From positions 930,001 through 994,000 of the forward strand of contig NZ_CP034234.1 of assembly GCF_003931795.1 (NCBI RefSeq): DNA of 64,000 bases, in the 5' to 3' direction. The notes beneath the pieces are model-generated. The model saw only the letters and a list, made by a program, of their open reading frames with translations. It was not told where the DNA came from and made no database searches. The translations under genes were made by a program, and so were the position numbers. The DNA is from Erysipelothrix piscisicarius. GTDB lineage: Bacteria; Bacillota_I; Bacilli_A; Erysipelotrichales; Erysipelotrichaceae. This document shows positions 8,081-39,142 of the stretch, piece after piece. Each line of letters opens with the position of its first letter. The first letter of the stretch is position 1.

Positions 8081-8329
8081 ATGAAAAAAGAAATTCATCC
8101 AGAATATCGAAAAGTTGTCTTTATGGATATCAATACACAAGCTCAATTTATCATTGGTTCTACGATTCAAACAGATAAAACGATAACACTTGAAGATGGG
8201 CGTGTGATGCCACTTGTAAATCTTGATATATCGTCAACATCGCATCCATTTTATACCGGAAAACAACGAGAAACGCGTGTTGAAGGTCAAATTGCGAAAT
8301 TTAATCGTAAGTTTAAATCACAACAATAA
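8081..8329 (+). CDS. rpmE2: 50S ribosomal protein L31 type B
   Basis: This 82-residue protein fits the longer, cysteine-free type B form of L31 (RpmE2/YtiA). It has the starting MKKEIHPEYRKVVF, the internal DISSTSHPFYTGKQ and the basic tail AKFNRKFKSQQ. No CxxC zinc ribbon is present. Type B L31 replaces the zinc-binding form on the large subunit when zinc is scarce. It lies immediately after the small basic ORF under a consensus promoter. A perfect bidirectional terminator follows. Confidence 0.93.
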   Translation: MKKEIHPEYRKVVFMDINTQAQFIIGSTIQTDKTITLEDGRVMPLVNLDISSTSHPFYTGKQRETRVEGQIAKFNRKFKSQQ

Positions 8330-8363: not shown

Positions 8364-10951
8364 TTAATCTAAAGGTGTCCAAACAAATTTCTTAACAATT
8401 GCTGTTGTTACAAGATAGAGACCGACGATTCCAAGAACGTATGCTAGATGATTTAAACTTAAAACTTGAAGTTCAATTGACTGAGCAAGCGGAGTTAGAA
8501 CGAAGATTAATGTAATAAGTACAGCAAGTGCTGAGACGCCTACTAAGATCGAAGCAGGTTTGTTCTTGAATGAGAACGGTTTTTTAGCACGAATTACAAA
8601 GATAATGAGTGCTTGCGATAAGATTCCAAATGTAAACCAGAATGTTTGGAATAAGGTCGCTTGTTCGGCAGTATTTACGCCGAGCACATACCATAGTGTG
8701 ATAAAGCACAGGATATCAAATACTGAACTTAAAGGTCCAAATACGGACATAAAGTGTACCAATCGATCCGATTCAAGTTTGCGTGGTTTATCGAGATCTG
8801 ATTCGTCGCAATTATCAAATGGAATCCCTGTTTGAGCAAGATCACTGAGTAAGTTTTGAACAAGAATATGAACGGGTAACAGCGGTAAGAAAGGCAAGAA
8901 GATACTTGCAACGATTACGGAAATCATATTTCCGACATTACCACTAACAGCCATTTCTAAGTACTTAATCATATTAACAATTGTCTTTCGGCCTTCCATG
9001 ATTCCTTTTCTAAAACCGTTAGGTCTTTTTTAAGAAGAATAATGTCGGCACTTTCTTTGGCAATGTCAACCGCAGTATCAACTGAGATTCCAACATCAGC
9101 TTGTTTTAATGCAAGGGCATCGTTGATACCGTCGCCTAAGAAACCAACTGTATGATTGTTTGCCTGGAATGCTTCCACAATACGTTGTTTTTGAACGGGG
9201 GATATTTTAGCGAAGAGATGACATGTACCTACAACGGCTTGAAGTTGTTCATCACTCATTTCTTCAATATCTTTACCCATATATGTTACTTCTGTATCAA
9301 TCCCAACTTTACTACATACTTTCTTAGCTACACCTAAACTATCTCCGGTGATAACAACAACATCGACACCATGACGATTTAAACTCTCGATCGTTGGTTT
9401 TGCGCTTTCTTTAGGTGGATCAAGGAATCCAATAAAACCAATGAGTACGAGATCTTTTTCATCTTCGACACTGAATTCATGATCTGTTGGTAGTTCATTT
9501 TTTTGTGCAACGGCAATCATACGCAAACCATCATTATTATGTTGCATATAGACATCCATTGCTTCTTCACGTGTTTCATCATCGAGTGGGTATACTTTTC
9601 CATCACGATCGATATAGGAACACAATTTCATGATTTCTTCAACAGCACCCTTTGTAATAAGTTGTTTTTTACCGTTACTGTCTTCCAAAATAACACTCAT
9701 TCGACGACGTGCAAAATCAAATGGAATTTCATCAACAATTGTATAATAGTTAACTAAGTCATCCATGTTGTAACTTGTTGCACGTTCAATAATTGCAAGG
9801 TCAATTAAGTTTTTTAGTCCACTTTGGAAATACGAGTTAAGATAAGCATGTCGCAATACACGCATGTCATCTTCACCGGTTGTATCCATATAACGTTCTA
9901 AAATAATATCCTCCTGAGTAATCGTACCGGTTTTATCGGTACACAAGACATCCATTTCACCAAATGATGAAATTGAACTTTGTGATTTCACAATGGTTTG
10001 ATGTTTAGACATGTTTATCGCACCACGTGCCAAGCCACTGCTAAGGACTACAGGGAGCATTTCAGGTGTTAATCCGACTGCTACGGTGAGGGCAAAAACA
10101 AATGATTCAATAGGATTTGCCTTAAAGATCCAATTTAGGATGAAAATTGCGGGTAGCATAATGAGCATTAATTTCATAAGCAAGCGACTTACTGTTGAAA
10201 TACTGCTTTCGAAACTGTTTGGACGTTTTGAATTTTTTAATGATCGGTTCATTTGTCCAAGATAAGTATCGCTACCTGTTCGAATTACAACCGCACGCGC
10301 GGAACCGGAAACAACGTTTGTTCCCATTAAACATAAATTCGTAAAGTCACTGTCTGCATCCATTTGGGATTCGTCAAATTTAACAAATTTCTCAATAGGT
10401 TGAGATTCACCGGTTAGTGTGGCTTGTGAAATAAATAAATCTTTTGCGGAAATTACTCGCATATCTGCAGGAATAATATCTCCAGCAGATAGACGGACAA
10501 CATCCCCTAAGACAAGATCATCAATTGGAATTTCTATAAATTGACCATCGCGAAGCGCTGCCGTTGTATTAGAAACCATATTTAAAAGTTTCTCGCTGGC
10601 TGCACTGGATCGCTCATCTTGAATAAATGAAATCAGTGTAGAAATAATAATAATAATTGCTAAAATTGAAATGGTTAAATAATCTTTTTCCTGTGTTAAT
10701 AAAATATCCGTAATAAATGTAATTACGATAACGACCATTAAGACTAAATTAAATGGATTAATTAAAACGTTAACAAATCCAATAAGAGGGTTTTTCTTTT
10801 TTTGAGGCTTGATCTCATTAGGACCATATTCTTCGAGCTTTTCCTCTGCTCGATTGGATGTATAACCCTCTGGAGATGCATCCAATTGTTCAAACAATTC
10901 CTCTTGGTTAAGTTGGAGTGTTTGAATTAGCTCTTTGTTTGTTACTGACAT
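8364..10951 (-). pseudogene. mgtA: Mg2+-importing P-type ATPase, frameshifted
   Basis: Two overlapping frames together encode an MgtA/MgtB-type P3 ATPase of about 862 residues. The first part (10951 to 8969) carries the N-terminal domain, the TGESQPIEK actuator loop, the phosphorylation motif CTDKTGT and the hinge GDGINDALALKQADVGIS. It then runs out of frame after DLTVLEK near 9001-9010. The second part (from 8999) continues with MEGRKTIVNMIKYLEM and the C-terminal membrane helices. Adding one base in the AAAAGG run restores VLEKGIMEGRKT. The lesion removes the C-terminal transport helices unless it is bypassed or is a sequencing error. A leader ORF and a hairpin precede the gene. Confidence 0.85.
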
Positions 10952-10965
10952 AGTTATAAACTCCC

Positions 10966-10985
10966 TTCATACTGTCATGTATGAA
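10966..10985 (-). promoter_or_regulatory. Hairpin between the leader ORF stop and the mgtA ribosome binding site
   Basis: On the minus strand TTCATAC and GTATGAA form a perfect 7-bp stem with a 6-nt loop. The 3' arm abuts the mgtA Shine-Dalgarno (AAGGGAG), and the 5' arm begins 6 nt after the leader stop codon. The 5' arm region can alternatively pair with codons 7-9 of the leader ORF. Confidence 0.6.
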
Positions 10986-10991
10986 CAAAAT

Positions 10992-11081
10992 TTATCGATG
11001 ACTTTCTTGAGGTGTACCCAAGGGGTCATCATCCAAAGATCGTTCACTAATACTGTCGTTCATGCAACTCTGACCTTCCAT
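10992..11081 (-). CDS. mgtA leader peptide ORF, 29 residues
   Basis: ATG 11081 lies 8 nt behind a perfect AGGAGG and opens 29 codons that end in TAA at 10992-10994, 40 nt before the mgtA ATG. The peptide starts MEGQSCMNDSISERS and then has the acidic-proline run LDDDPLGTPQE. Acidic and proline-rich leader peptides such as MgtL destabilise ribosomes at low Mg2+ in enteric bacteria and control mgtA expression. Sequence homology to MgtL is not claimed; the resemblance is in composition and position. The promoter places the transcript start just before the SD, so the leader ORF begins the mRNA. No M-box Mg2+ riboswitch is visible. Confidence 0.6.
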   Translation of the reverse strand: MEGQSCMNDSISERSLDDDPLGTPQESHR

Positions 11082-11105
11082 TGGTTTTCACCTCCTCGCT
11101 TTAAA

Positions 11106-11134
11106 ACTATAACAAATTGAGGTTCATTAAGCAA
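11106..11134 (-). promoter_or_regulatory. Promoter of the leader ORF-mgtA transcript
   Basis: On the minus strand a -35 TTGCTT (11134-11129), a 17-bp spacer and a -10 TATAGT (11111-11106) predict a start near 11099. That is about 18 nt before the leader ATG, so the mRNA starts almost at the Shine-Dalgarno sequence. Confidence 0.6.
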
Positions 11135-11214: not shown

Positions 11215-11952
11215 ATGAAAAATGTAAACTTGAGCAATGAACTCGGAATTGATACAGTACTCTTTGATTTGGACGGTACAATTCTACCGCTTGATGGGGA
11301 TGACTTTGAACGAACATATTTAACATCGATTACACAAAAAGTCGCGCATATTATTGAACCGGAAGCAATGGCAAAAGCGTTGTGGAAATCAAGTGCGGCA
11401 ATGATTCAAAATACTGATATTTTTAAAACGAACGAACAGGTGTTTTATGATTGTTTTGAAACACTGGTTGGTACAGAAATTAAAACTCAAATTGATGCGA
11501 TATTAGATGATTATTACGAACATGAATATGACATCGTGGAGACGGTTACATCGATTTCAAAACCGATGGTTGATGCGGTTTATTATTTAAGAGAAAAAGG
11601 ATACAAAGTAATTCTAGCAACCAATCCGCTTTTCCCAAAACTTGCCACGGATAAACGAATTTGGTGGTCGGGTCTCGAATTAGATGATTTTGATGATATT
11701 ACTCGATTTGAGAAAAATCATCATTGTAAACCCAACCCAATGTATTATGAAGAAATAATAAGTGATAATAAGTTGGATCCGAATGCGTGTCTAATGATTG
11801 GGAATGATGTTGAAGAAGACATGATGGCATCACAATTTGGGATGAAGACGTGGTTATTAACGGATAATTTAATTCATCGTGGCTCAGATTATCATTGTGA
11901 CTGGATGGGTTCACGAGAGGAATTAATTAAGAAAATAAAGGAGTTGTTTTAA
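11215..11952 (+). CDS. HAD-superfamily hydrolase
   Basis: The 245-residue protein has the four haloacid-dehalogenase motifs: nucleophile FDLDGTILPLDG near residue 18, ATNPLFP with the motif II region near residue 126, a lysine in KPNPMYYEE, and IGNDVEEDMMASQFGMKTW with the metal-binding aspartates. It is probably a small-molecule phosphatase; the substrate cannot be read from sequence. ATG follows GTGGGAGGTAACAT. Its stop overlaps the ald start by one base, so the two are co-transcribed. Confidence 0.88.
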   Translation: MKNVNLSNELGIDTVLFDLDGTILPLDGDDFERTYLTSITQKVAHIIEPEAMAKALWKSSAAMIQNTDIFKTNEQVFYDCFETLVGTEIKTQIDAILDDYYEHEYDIVETVTSISKPMVDAVYYLREKGYKVILATNPLFPKLATDKRIWWSGLELDDFDDITRFEKNHHCKPNPMYYEEIISDNKLDPNACLMIGNDVEEDMMASQFGMKTWLLTDNLIHRGSDYHCDWMGSREELIKKIKELF

Positions 11953-13079
11953 TGCGTATAGGATCAGTAAAAGAACGAAAAGATTTTGAACAACGTGTAG
12001 GGATTATGCCTTCTCATGTTATTGAATATATTAAAAACGGTCATGAAGTCTATGTGGAGTCTGGGTTAGGCCTTGGGAGTGGCTTTACCGATGAAGAATA
12101 CCAACATAACGGTGCCATTCTTTGTGATGATGCTGCTTCTGTTTGGAAACAATCAGAAATGATCATTAAAGTAAAATAACCCATCGCAGAAGAATATGAT
12201 TTAATGCAACCCAATCAAATTCTTTTCACTTACTTGCATCTAGCCGATAATTTACCCTTAGCTAAAGCATTAATGGAACGGAATGTAATTGCCGTGGCCT
12301 ATGAGACTGTGACAGATGAATTAGGGCGCTTACCGCTATTAAAACCAATGTCTGAAGTAGCAGGGCGACTCTCGATTCAAGAGGGTGCGAAATATTTAGA
12401 AAAAACCTATGGTGGAAAGGGAATTTTATTATCTGGGGTTCCTGGTGTCCGTGGGGGTCATGTTGTCATTATTGGTGGTGGTGTTGTTGGTATGAGTGCA
12501 TGTAAAACGGCGTTAGGAACGGGAGCAACCTTGAGTGTAATGGATCGGAATTTAGATCGATTGGCTTATATTGAAGATGTTTTCGGAACTGCTGTCAATA
12601 CAATATATAGTGACTTAAAAAATATTGAAGATGAGCTCCGCCGTGCTGATGTTGTGATTGGAAGTGTCTTACTTCCTGGTGCTCGTGCCCCAAAATTGGT
12701 AACGCGTGACCATTTAAAAATTATGGAACCTGGAACCGTGTTAGTTGATGTAGCGATTGATCAAGGGGGATGCTTTGAGTCCAGTCACCCAACAACTCAC
12801 AGCAATCCGGTATTTGTTGACCAGGGAATTGTTCATTATTGTGTTACCAACATGCCTGGGGCGGTTCCCAAGACTTCAACCTATGCGTTGGGGAATGCGA
12901 CTTTACCATATGGTTTAAAAATTGCTAACAGTGGTATTCATGAAGCGGTAACCAATGATCCAGGGATTAAAAATGGTTTAAATATTTATCACGGACAGGT
13001 TGTGAATGACGCGGTTGCGGCTGCACTTGATTTAGAATATATTGAATATGAAAACTGTGTTAAAGTGGTGCAACTTTAG
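11952..13079 (+). pseudogene. ald: Alanine dehydrogenase interrupted by an in-frame stop
   Basis: The frame from 11952 to 13079 is colinear with alanine dehydrogenase (375 codons plus stop, normal length). Codon 76 (12177-12179) is TAA. The family has glutamate here (KVKEP), so GAA to TAA is the simplest change, one codon after the catalytic lysine. All later parts are intact and in phase: LFTYLHLA with the catalytic histidine, GVPGVRGGHVVIIGGGVVG for NAD binding, and NMPGAVPKTSTYAL. The enzyme would interconvert alanine and pyruvate. The good state of the rest suggests recent loss. Reinitiation at ATG 12204 would give an enzyme lacking the N-terminal catalytic lysine. Confidence 0.9.
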
Positions 13080-15126: not shown

Positions 15127-15135
15127 TAATTGAGT

Positions 15136-15618
15136 ATGTCTCATAAACCCAAATTTAGAGTGATGCGCCAAGGGTATGATCGCTTTGAAGTTGATCAAAT
15201 GATTGCGAATTTGGAACATGATAAAACGATATTAACAAAACAAATTGAACTTTATCAAAAACAAGTGGAGTCATTACAGGAACAACGTGATATAATCAAA
15301 AAGCGATATCAACAATTGGTAAGCGAAAGTGGTGTTCGTGAGAAAGCTGCAGAAGAAATGTCGCGGCTTGCCTTACGGGAAGCAAATTCAATTATCGATA
15401 CAGCCTATATGAATGCGGACATGATTGTTCGTGAGGCGATGTCTACATCGCGTCAAGTACTCGTTGAAATAGCTCGTATTTCAAATGAATCAAACGAACT
15501 CCGTGACGAATTAAAAGAAAAATTAATGGAATTAGAGGTGGCAATTGACGATTTAACCTTGCCAGATGCGCCCAATTCCAAACTTATTGGTGAAGATCAA
15601 GACACATTAAAACGATAA
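15136..15618 (+). CDS. divIVA: DivIVA-family septum/pole protein
   Basis: About 160 residues form a DivIVA-type coiled coil. The N-terminal membrane-targeting domain is recognisable in FRVMRQGYDRFEVDQMIANL. Heptad-rich helices follow to a short disordered tail. DivIVA senses membrane curvature at septa and poles. Start ATG 15136 is preferred because it gives a family-like N-terminus; TTG 15130 is in frame 6 bp earlier and neither has a strong Shine-Dalgarno. It follows sepF by a few bases. Confidence 0.88.
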   Translation: MSHKPKFRVMRQGYDRFEVDQMIANLEHDKTILTKQIELYQKQVESLQEQRDIIKKRYQQLVSESGVREKAAEEMSRLALREANSIIDTAYMNADMIVREAMSTSRQVLVEIARISNESNELRDELKEKLMELEVAIDDLTLPDAPNSKLIGEDQDTLKR

Positions 15619-15803
15619 ATTGTTTCAGAGAGCTTGTGGCTGGTGAAAACAAGTAACAATCCGTTTTAGTATCACTTGTGAACCTTACTTTTGAAATTAT
15701 AGTAGGAAGTACGTACTACGGCGTTAACGTATTGAGATTACAGATTACTCTGTAAATTAAGGTGGTACCGCGTTGAAGACGCCCTTATGAGGGCGTCTTT
15801 TTT
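15619..15803 (+). promoter_or_regulatory. Isoleucine T-box riboswitch of ileS
   Basis: The T-box sequence AAGGTGGTACCGCG lies at about 15759-15772. Upstream stem I has an ATC specifier (AGTATCACTTG), which matches isoleucine. The terminator has arms 15778-15785 and 15790-15797 with a TATG loop and a following T-run. Uncharged tRNA-Ile would stabilise the antiterminator and allow ileS transcription. Confidence 0.93.
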
Positions 15804-38312: not shown

Positions 38313-39142
38313 TCATCAAGCTCGTTGAAGAGTATCGCAACACTGTATCTCTTAAAGATATCTTGAATCTTTTGGGGACCTAAGTCAACGTATTACCGTT
38401 GGACTAAAAGAGCAACTAGAGTCTAATAATTATTCTGTCAATGAAGCATTAGTAATTGAACTTTGTAAAGAAAATAAATTTCGTTATGGATATCGAAAAT
38501 AACTGCATTAATTCGAAAGAAAGAATTATCAATAAGAACACTGTTCAAAAGATAATGCAGAAACACCAATGTCAATGCCGTGTTAAGGTCAAACGGTATC
38601 GAAAAAACAAAAATCCGAAGATCATTATGCCCAATATCATTAATCGCGACTTTAAATCACTACGTCCTCTAGAGAAATTGGTGACAGATATCACTTACAT
38701 CCCTTATGGCCATAAGATGCTCTATTTATCTACGATCATGGATTTATATAATGGTGAGATTATTGCGTCTACATTGAGTGACAGACAAAACCTAGAATGT
38801 GTGGTTGATACATTAAATCAACTTCCGGATATCGTTCAGCCATGTATTCTTCATTCTGATCAAGGGAGTGTCTATACATCAAAAGAGTATCAACTCAAAG
38901 TAAAAAATAAAAGCATTACCATGAGTATGTCCCGTAAGGGTACACCCGCTGATAATGCTCCTATCGAATCGTTTCATGCCTCGCTAAAGTGTGAAACATT
39001 CGAATTAAACCCAGAACTAAAGGGTTCTACTGAAATTGTATCACAAACTGTGATAAACTATTTAAAATATTACAATGAAAATCGAATACAAGAAAAGCTA
39101 GGATATCAATCTCCCGTAAATTATCGGTTAACTTCATCCTAA
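38297..39142 (+). pseudogene. IS3-family orfB transposase, several frameshifts
   Basis: The N-terminal half (VVPEIIIKLVEEYRNTVSL, then PKSTYYRWTK and NEALVIELCKENKFRYGYRK) is split over several frames. The integrase core is open from 38456 and holds the DDE residues in LVTDITYIPYG, LHSDQGSVYTS and ADNAPIESFHASLKCE. At least three one-base changes are needed to restore the whole. The element cannot make its own transposase unless these are sequencing errors. Confidence 0.88.

Follow-up and report, generated by a model that had tools for sequence, protein, structure and literature searches.

An acidic-proline leader peptide gene in front of mgtA in Erysipelothrix, and acidic leaders before mgtA in other bacteria

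The window analysed here is a stretch of 64,000 nucleotides from Erysipelothrix piscisicarius (contig NZ_CP034234.1, positions 930,001 to 994,000). It carries the gene mgtA, preceded by a short leader ORF with its own Shine-Dalgarno sequence (SD1) and promoter elements (Table 1). The product of mgtA scored 760 bits against the NCBIfam equivalog TIGR01524 (Mg-translocating P-type ATPase), for which the cut-off is 611. The spacing of the promoter elements (TTGCTT-17-TATAGT) predicts a transcription start near 11099 and a leader 5' UTR of 18 nt, and the leader is the first ORF on the predicted mgtA mRNA. This promoter is absent from the list of a generic promoter scan because its -35 element fits the consensus at only 3 of 6 positions. 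An earlier note on this DNA had described a 29-codon ORF with a perfect AGGAGG, a 5' UTR of about 18 nt and a stop 40 nt before mgtA (ATG at 10951), all of which hold on direct reading, the transcription start being a prediction. The leader DNA is present in a single copy in the window genome.

Table 1. Positions, within the window, of mgtA and of the features found upstream of it
Feature	Position	Strand	Remarks
mgtA promoter -35, TTGCTT	11129..11134	-	From the sequence; TTG-N3 and 17 nt to TANNNT in 11/11 genus copies
mgtA promoter -10, TATAGT, with TGT upstream (extended -10)	11106..11111	-	
Leader Shine-Dalgarno SD1, AGGAGG	11091..11096	-	9 nt 5' of the leader ATG
Leader ORF, MEGQSCMNDSISERSLDDDPLGTPQESHR	10992..11081	-	29 codons and TAA; direct reading
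Segment R1, GTGAACGA, codons 12-14	11040..11047	-	Predicted to form R1:R2 in place of the SD hairpin
DDDPLG acidic-proline motif	11016..11033	-	Proposed sensing element; codons 17-22; D17, D19 and P20 invariant (alignment), codons vary synonymously
CACCTC, 3' side of P1	11009..11014	-	Directly after the DDDPLG motif; complementary to SD1; suggestive
Hairpin P2	10956..10995	-	Starts at the leader stop codon, with the mgtA SD in its 3' arm; predicted folds
Segment R2, TTGTTCAT	10981..10988	-	Forms the 5' side of P2, or pairs with R1; predicted
mgtA Shine-Dalgarno SD2, GGGAG	10961..10965	-	9 nt 5' of the mgtA ATG
mgtA, Mg2+ P-type ATPase	8969..10951	-	Open for 660 aa here, then a frameshift; about 860-868 aa in most relatives

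The mgtA ORF ends at 660 aa instead of about 862 through a frameshift (8969-9010, reverse strand), where the A-run at 9009-9006 lacks one base compared with a close relative (L004); a sequencing error in the homopolymer and a real lesion are both possible. An alanine dehydrogenase-like gene (11952-13079, forward strand) is split by an in-frame TAA at 12177-12179 into ORFs of 75 and 291 aa, which makes two broken genes close together. The convergent neighbour of mgtA is a bL31-like (type B) gene (8082-8329, forward strand), with an apparent shared terminator. A meaningful link between bL31 and mgtA was considered because in E. coli bL31 counteracts acidic drop-off, but the arrangement is treated as a coincidence since only close relatives (L004, L006) showed this neighbourhood.

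The genus was sampled with 13 genomes, which hold 12 mgtA orthologues of 73-100% identity. A profile of the leader matched 12 of the 13 genomes (E 1e-5 to 1e-17), in one of them at a contig edge (E 1.4e-5), and from the remaining genome (G012, locus L008) the ORF is gone. Directly before mgtA the start, the frame and the DDDP run, on whose conservation the earlier note had made its reading depend, are kept in 11 of the 12 orthologues. The consensus of the peptide is M-E-x-[QR]-S-C ... D-[DE]-D-P-(L-G), and M1 and S5, together with D17, D19 and P20, are invariant in the nine distinct peptides. The aspartates are encoded in several ways (GAT GAT GAC, GAC GAT GAT, GAT GAC GAT and GAC GAT GAC), and most substitutions within the conserved blocks are silent, codons changing chiefly at their third positions. 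In all ten pairs among five diverged copies amino-acid changes were fewer than expected from neutral placement of the same substitutions (p 0.0002-0.02). This signal comes from codons 1-6 and 15-22, while codons 7-14 look unconstrained as protein. The promoter lies at the same position in all 11 copies examined.

Judged from these substitution patterns, the leader ORF is under purifying selection as a protein, and it is almost certainly a real and translated gene. That it is a chance ORF, and that promoter or RNA structure alone accounts for its conservation, is barely conceivable. RNA constraint does overlap the ORF, and some of the nucleotide conservation may be structural, but in 11 copies start and frame align and the stop stays near mgtA, every copy has a strong SD before the leader, and substitutions are biased to synonymous sites.

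It is very probable that the leader acts in cis on mgtA. In enteric bacteria the small proteins MgtR and MgtS act on Mg2+ transporters, and conservation at the protein level would also suit a peptide working in trans in a similar way, for example on MgtA itself. We consider this highly improbable, given that the peptide is hydrophilic and has no membrane segment, that its C-terminus is conserved neither in sequence nor in length, and that its stop codon forms part of the hairpin containing the mgtA SD. Classical attenuation, with ribosomes stalling at the QSC or the proline codons when charged Cys or Pro tRNA is scarce, is very unlikely as well. Cys6 is conserved in all copies but one, some copies have several cysteines, and proline codons have been linked to enteric mgtL; against this, the peptide has only one invariant proline and one nearly invariant cysteine, with no stretch of repeated codons, mgtA is not connected with Cys or Pro metabolism, and it is the acidic residues that are common across lineages (see below).

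The M-box Mg2+ riboswitch (ykoK, RF00380) also controls Mg2+ transporter genes, but it is a direct Mg2+-binding aptamer, and its covariance model found no match in the window or in the whole window genome. M-box control of the window mgtA was therefore rejected; the leader has no match to any Rfam family either. Seven genomes of the genus have one M-box each, and in six of them it precedes a paralogue of mgtA that shares about 46-48% identity with the window gene. Leader-controlled and riboswitch-controlled copies of mgtA thus coexist in the genus; of the two, the window genome carries the leader-controlled copy alone. The earlier note's remark that no M-box is visible for this gene holds. Since an M-box sits on an mgtA paralogue in this genus, Mg2+ control of the gene family is to be expected, and Mg2+, acting through ribosome stability, is rather likely to be the signal for the leader. 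In several of the six M-box loci (L016-L021) a further short SD-led ORF lies between the M-box and the gene, and some of these ORFs are acidic, as in L020 (MQETTDAIDDDDWIYTHNF...).

Two other outputs known from bacterial leaders were rejected for the window. There is no recognisable Rho in any genome of the genus (best matches at most 45 bits, against an equivalog cut-off of 509), and the window contains no intrinsic terminator between 10900 and 11260. With neither a terminator nor Rho, the output of the leader is probably translational.

In hairpin P2 the mgtA ribosome-binding site is predicted to lie in a stem-loop open to change by translation of the leader, a feature of the MgtQ type. The mean accessibility of the mgtA SD was 0.24, versus 0.45 with shuffled spacers, and each of the seven distinct leaders fell below the shuffled mean. 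When a ribosome was simulated by masking, the SD clearly opened only with the ribosome on the last codons or the stop (8 of 9 leaders), and a ribosome masked at DDDP left it closed. These static folds of the genus leaders weigh against the earlier note's inference, by analogy with MgtL, that drop-off would turn on mgtA here. They can be accommodated by positive translational coupling, in which ribosomes finishing the leader melt P2 at the stop and hand over to mgtA; the position of the leader stop inside P2 and a 40-nt spacing suited to re-initiation agree with this. Full translation of the leader would then turn mgtA on, and the acidic-proline motif would be a brake, or would sense something other than low Mg2+ by drop-off. 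Such coupling is the main rival to drop-off, fitting the static folds better and the physiology worse, and we consider it possible and yet doubtful. Drop-off at DDDP at low Mg2+ would give it the wrong sign for a Mg2+ importer, and coupling would not explain why DDDP and the N-terminus are conserved.

Drop-off in the proposed sense calls for an alternative partner of R2. Codons of about 12-14 (R1) are the main partner of R2 within the ORF in five of the seven leaders and this pairing is absent in the other two. In the folds of these five, R1:R2 forms around the DDDPLG region before the SD is transcribed or when the SD is held open. The paired sequences differ by species (GUGAACGA/UUGUUCAU, GUGAGCGA/UCGUUCAU, GAAUGUU/AACAUUC and GCACU/AGUGC). 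A tighter test of the pairing in the genus gave a Fisher p of 0.014 and a permutation p of 0.068, and a less strict duplex test gave no significance (p 0.1 and 0.34), so that these folds are only suggestive of R1:R2 as an alternative pairing. At equilibrium freeing the mgtA SD otherwise costs 3.4-7.2 kcal/mol in favour of P2, and the R1:R2 switch would therefore need a co-transcriptional, kinetic decision. A further pairing, P1, could join SD1 to the codons after DDDPLG; by eye it resembled covariation, but a cross-species permutation test gave p 0.09, and P1 is only suggestive of sequestration of the leader's own SD.

The mechanism that we infer joins translation of the leader, instability of the ribosome at DDDP, Mg2+ as the signal, and a switch between R1:R2 and P2 together with its sign. 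At low cytosolic Mg2+, ribosomes making D-D-D-P would be destabilised or paused; with few ribosomes on the second half of the ORF, R2 would pair with R1 and not with the mgtA SD, and mgtA would be translated. With ample Mg2+ ribosomes would reach the stop and prevent R1:R2, and after their release there R2 would close over the mgtA SD, leaving mgtA off. We give an even chance to the core of this proposal, namely that the leader peptide gene works in cis and tunes mgtA expression through the behaviour of ribosomes on the acidic-proline nascent chain. Drop-off with the proposed sign (drop-off leading to mgtA on) appears just as finely balanced, and the sign of the R1:R2/P2 switch is the weakest step of the mechanism. 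Other facts also speak against the proposal: the conserved MExQSC start is not accounted for, one genome (G012) lacks the leader, the window mgtA is frameshifted in this assembly, and the acidic run comes as late as codons 17-20, a position at which the greater length of the nascent chain should make destabilisation weaker. In E. coli, moving the motif by 10 residues left the acidic effect strong, a shift of 20 made it weak and one of 30 abolished it (PMC11282234), and by these data a DDDP at codons 17-20 would still be in range.

Sister genera carry RNA arrangements on the same plan, and these switches are cleaner test objects than the window copy. In one sister genus, g20 (leader MEAxE[VI]PLSC), a GGCGGCU in the ORF follows the acidic-proline motif, an AGCCGCC lies in the spacer, and the mgtA SD is GGAGGCUUUUU. 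The spacer can pair either with the ORF segment (R1:R2) or with the SD (R2:R3); the two pairings are mutually exclusive and both exceed shuffles (Fisher p 2.7e-12 and 2.2e-12). The ORF segment keeps its nucleotides while its amino acids differ (IRRL, SGGF, LAAL, KAAR), which points to selection on the RNA. In several g20 leaders an early masked ribosome left the mgtA SD more accessible than a later one, and in others there was little or no difference; in L082 accessibility was 0.7-0.8 with the ribosome at codons 4-8 and then 0.2. According to these folds the RNA logic of g20 agrees with mgtA being translated once a ribosome has dropped off at the acidic motif, opposite to what coupling would require. 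Genera g52/g55 (leader DDYHSR ... GGHAA) follow the same three-segment plan with other sequences, the alternative pairings again exceeding shuffles (Fisher p 1e-5 to 1e-6). The compact switches, made of a leader segment, a spacer and an mgtA SD followed by a U-run, occur behind N-terminal acidic leaders in L079-L098, L090, L102, L103 and L116.

The best known relative in function is MgtL of E. coli and Salmonella, whose ribosomes drop off at EPDP at low Mg2+ (PMC11282234), EttA or bL31 counteracting this (PMC11282234, PMC11552253). MgtL shares with the present leader a short ORF with its own SD upstream of mgtA on the mRNA, an acidic-proline motif under selection and a stem able to sequester the leader SD, namely stem A of enteric mgtA/corA (PMC11552253), of which P1 would be the suggestive counterpart. 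The two differ in that EPDP occupies codons 2-5 and DDDP codons 17-20; N-terminal acidic motifs occur in the leaders of other genera. By eye, MDPDPTPLPKWRTPSFR and the window peptide are alike only in their acidic and proline content. Moreover, the leader stop lies about 260 nt before mgtA in the enteric loci seen, against 40 nt here, and MgtL works through Rho-dependent termination. Of the analogy to MgtL drawn in the earlier note, a conserved acidic-proline leader before a true mgtA without an M-box stands, and the sister-genus switches lend it support by analogy in fitting drop-off that turns the gene on; the Rho-dependent output of MgtL cannot apply in a genus with no recognisable Rho, and the acidic run is not at the N-terminus.

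A translational output has been described for MgtQ, the leader of Salmonella mgtB, which has Asp2 and Glu5 and releases the mgtB ribosome-binding site from a stem-loop (PMC8092293). Acidic codons, an AGGAGG and the freeing of a transporter SD from an inhibitory stem-loop are shared with the window leader, where the last is predicted. However, MgtQ has 8 codons and lies between two genes of an operon, whereas the present leader has 29 and comes first on its mRNA, and the two have no sequence similarity. CorL, the leader of enteric corA, is also a uORF whose translation efficiency sets the expression of a Mg2+ transporter, but the transporter is another one, the peptide has few acidic or proline residues and the output is Rho-dependent (PMC11552253). 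We read the Erysipelothrix leader as a translational variant of the MgtL/MgtQ kind.

A search of the family (273 genomes) with the leader profile gave no credible match in its 59 other genera (best E 0.015), and the leader family therefore cannot be widened by homology alone. In a wider survey the regions upstream of mgtA were read without a peptide query, 149 regions being covered outside the leader-bearing copies of the genus. They contain 77 SD-led short ORFs, and 43 of the 149 regions hold one with Asp or Glu at residue 2. This feature is present in 46 of the 77 ORFs (60%), and 43 (56%) have at least two acidic residues in positions 2-6. The corresponding values were 13% and 8% in a dinucleotide-shuffled control, and 8% and 5% in SD-led genes of at least 100 aa in the fetched loci; on the reverse strand none of 12 ORFs had an acidic residue 2. 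The surveyed loci are partly related and the counts are not independent, yet the contrast with the controls is still large.

The peptides recovered are diverse. Leaders of sister genera begin with MEASEVPLSC..., MEDPLS..., MEDSPRR... or MTHTDDYHSR..., and other families of the class have MEEPQSR... and MEDSQSR.... In Clostridia, Lactobacillales and Spirochaetes we found MDSNPRSRLC..., MDDSYRSRRC..., MEAGSSSG..., MDEGSSTG... and MDPDGRD..., and the enteric MDPDPTPLP leader was recovered in the same survey. Two TGA-reading Mycoplasmatales-type genomes (L136 and L139) share a 26-codon leader, MSPLSSFNDEVPI..., located some 177 to 96 nt upstream of the mgtA match, with the acidic-proline motif inside the peptide. 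What the earlier note had taken for an independent or very diverged case is thus one of many acidic leaders before mgtA in other lineages. We found no description of acidic mgtA leaders outside enterics, Erysipelothrix included, in the openly licensed full-text literature, which is a weak sign of novelty given the partial coverage of that literature.

It is tempting to suggest that acidic leaders are a general and largely unrecognised ribosome-based Mg2+ control of mgtA in Bacillota and beyond, a generalisation that could equally prove right or wrong. Under it, and with the same balance of confidence, DDDPLG, MEAxEVPLSC, DDYHSR, MEDPLS, MDSNPRSRLC, MDEGSS and the enteric MDPDPTP would be unrelated peptide families forming the same nascent-chain sensor. 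The outputs would differ, being SD sequestration, an intrinsic terminator or Rho, and lineages without Rho would be included; for this part too the case is about evenly poised. An intrinsic terminator lies between leader and mgtA in some Oscillospiraceae-type leaders and in L162. In L157, L159, L164 and L162 the acidic leader ORF is separated from mgtA by a strong hairpin that resembles a terminator and has a U-run, which suggests that the output may instead be attenuation of transcription.

Intrinsic destabilisation of the ribosome as a gauge of Mg2+ has so far been described for a few enteric leaders. The present data suggest that many unrelated bacteria guard this pump by the same principle, with the peptide sequence and the output machinery swapped. 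If this is true, the ribosome itself would be a Mg2+ sensor both ancient and widespread, and every lineage would supply an independent set of sequences for finding which part of the nascent chain does the sensing.

Two RNA elements elsewhere in the window were also recorded. One is a T-box leader (15584-15789, forward strand, 119.7 bits), which begins at the end of a 162-aa ORF (15130-15618). The other is an Rfam match to rli23, a Listeria antisense RNA, which lies at 38946-39045 on the reverse strand and is above the gathering score, far from Listeria.
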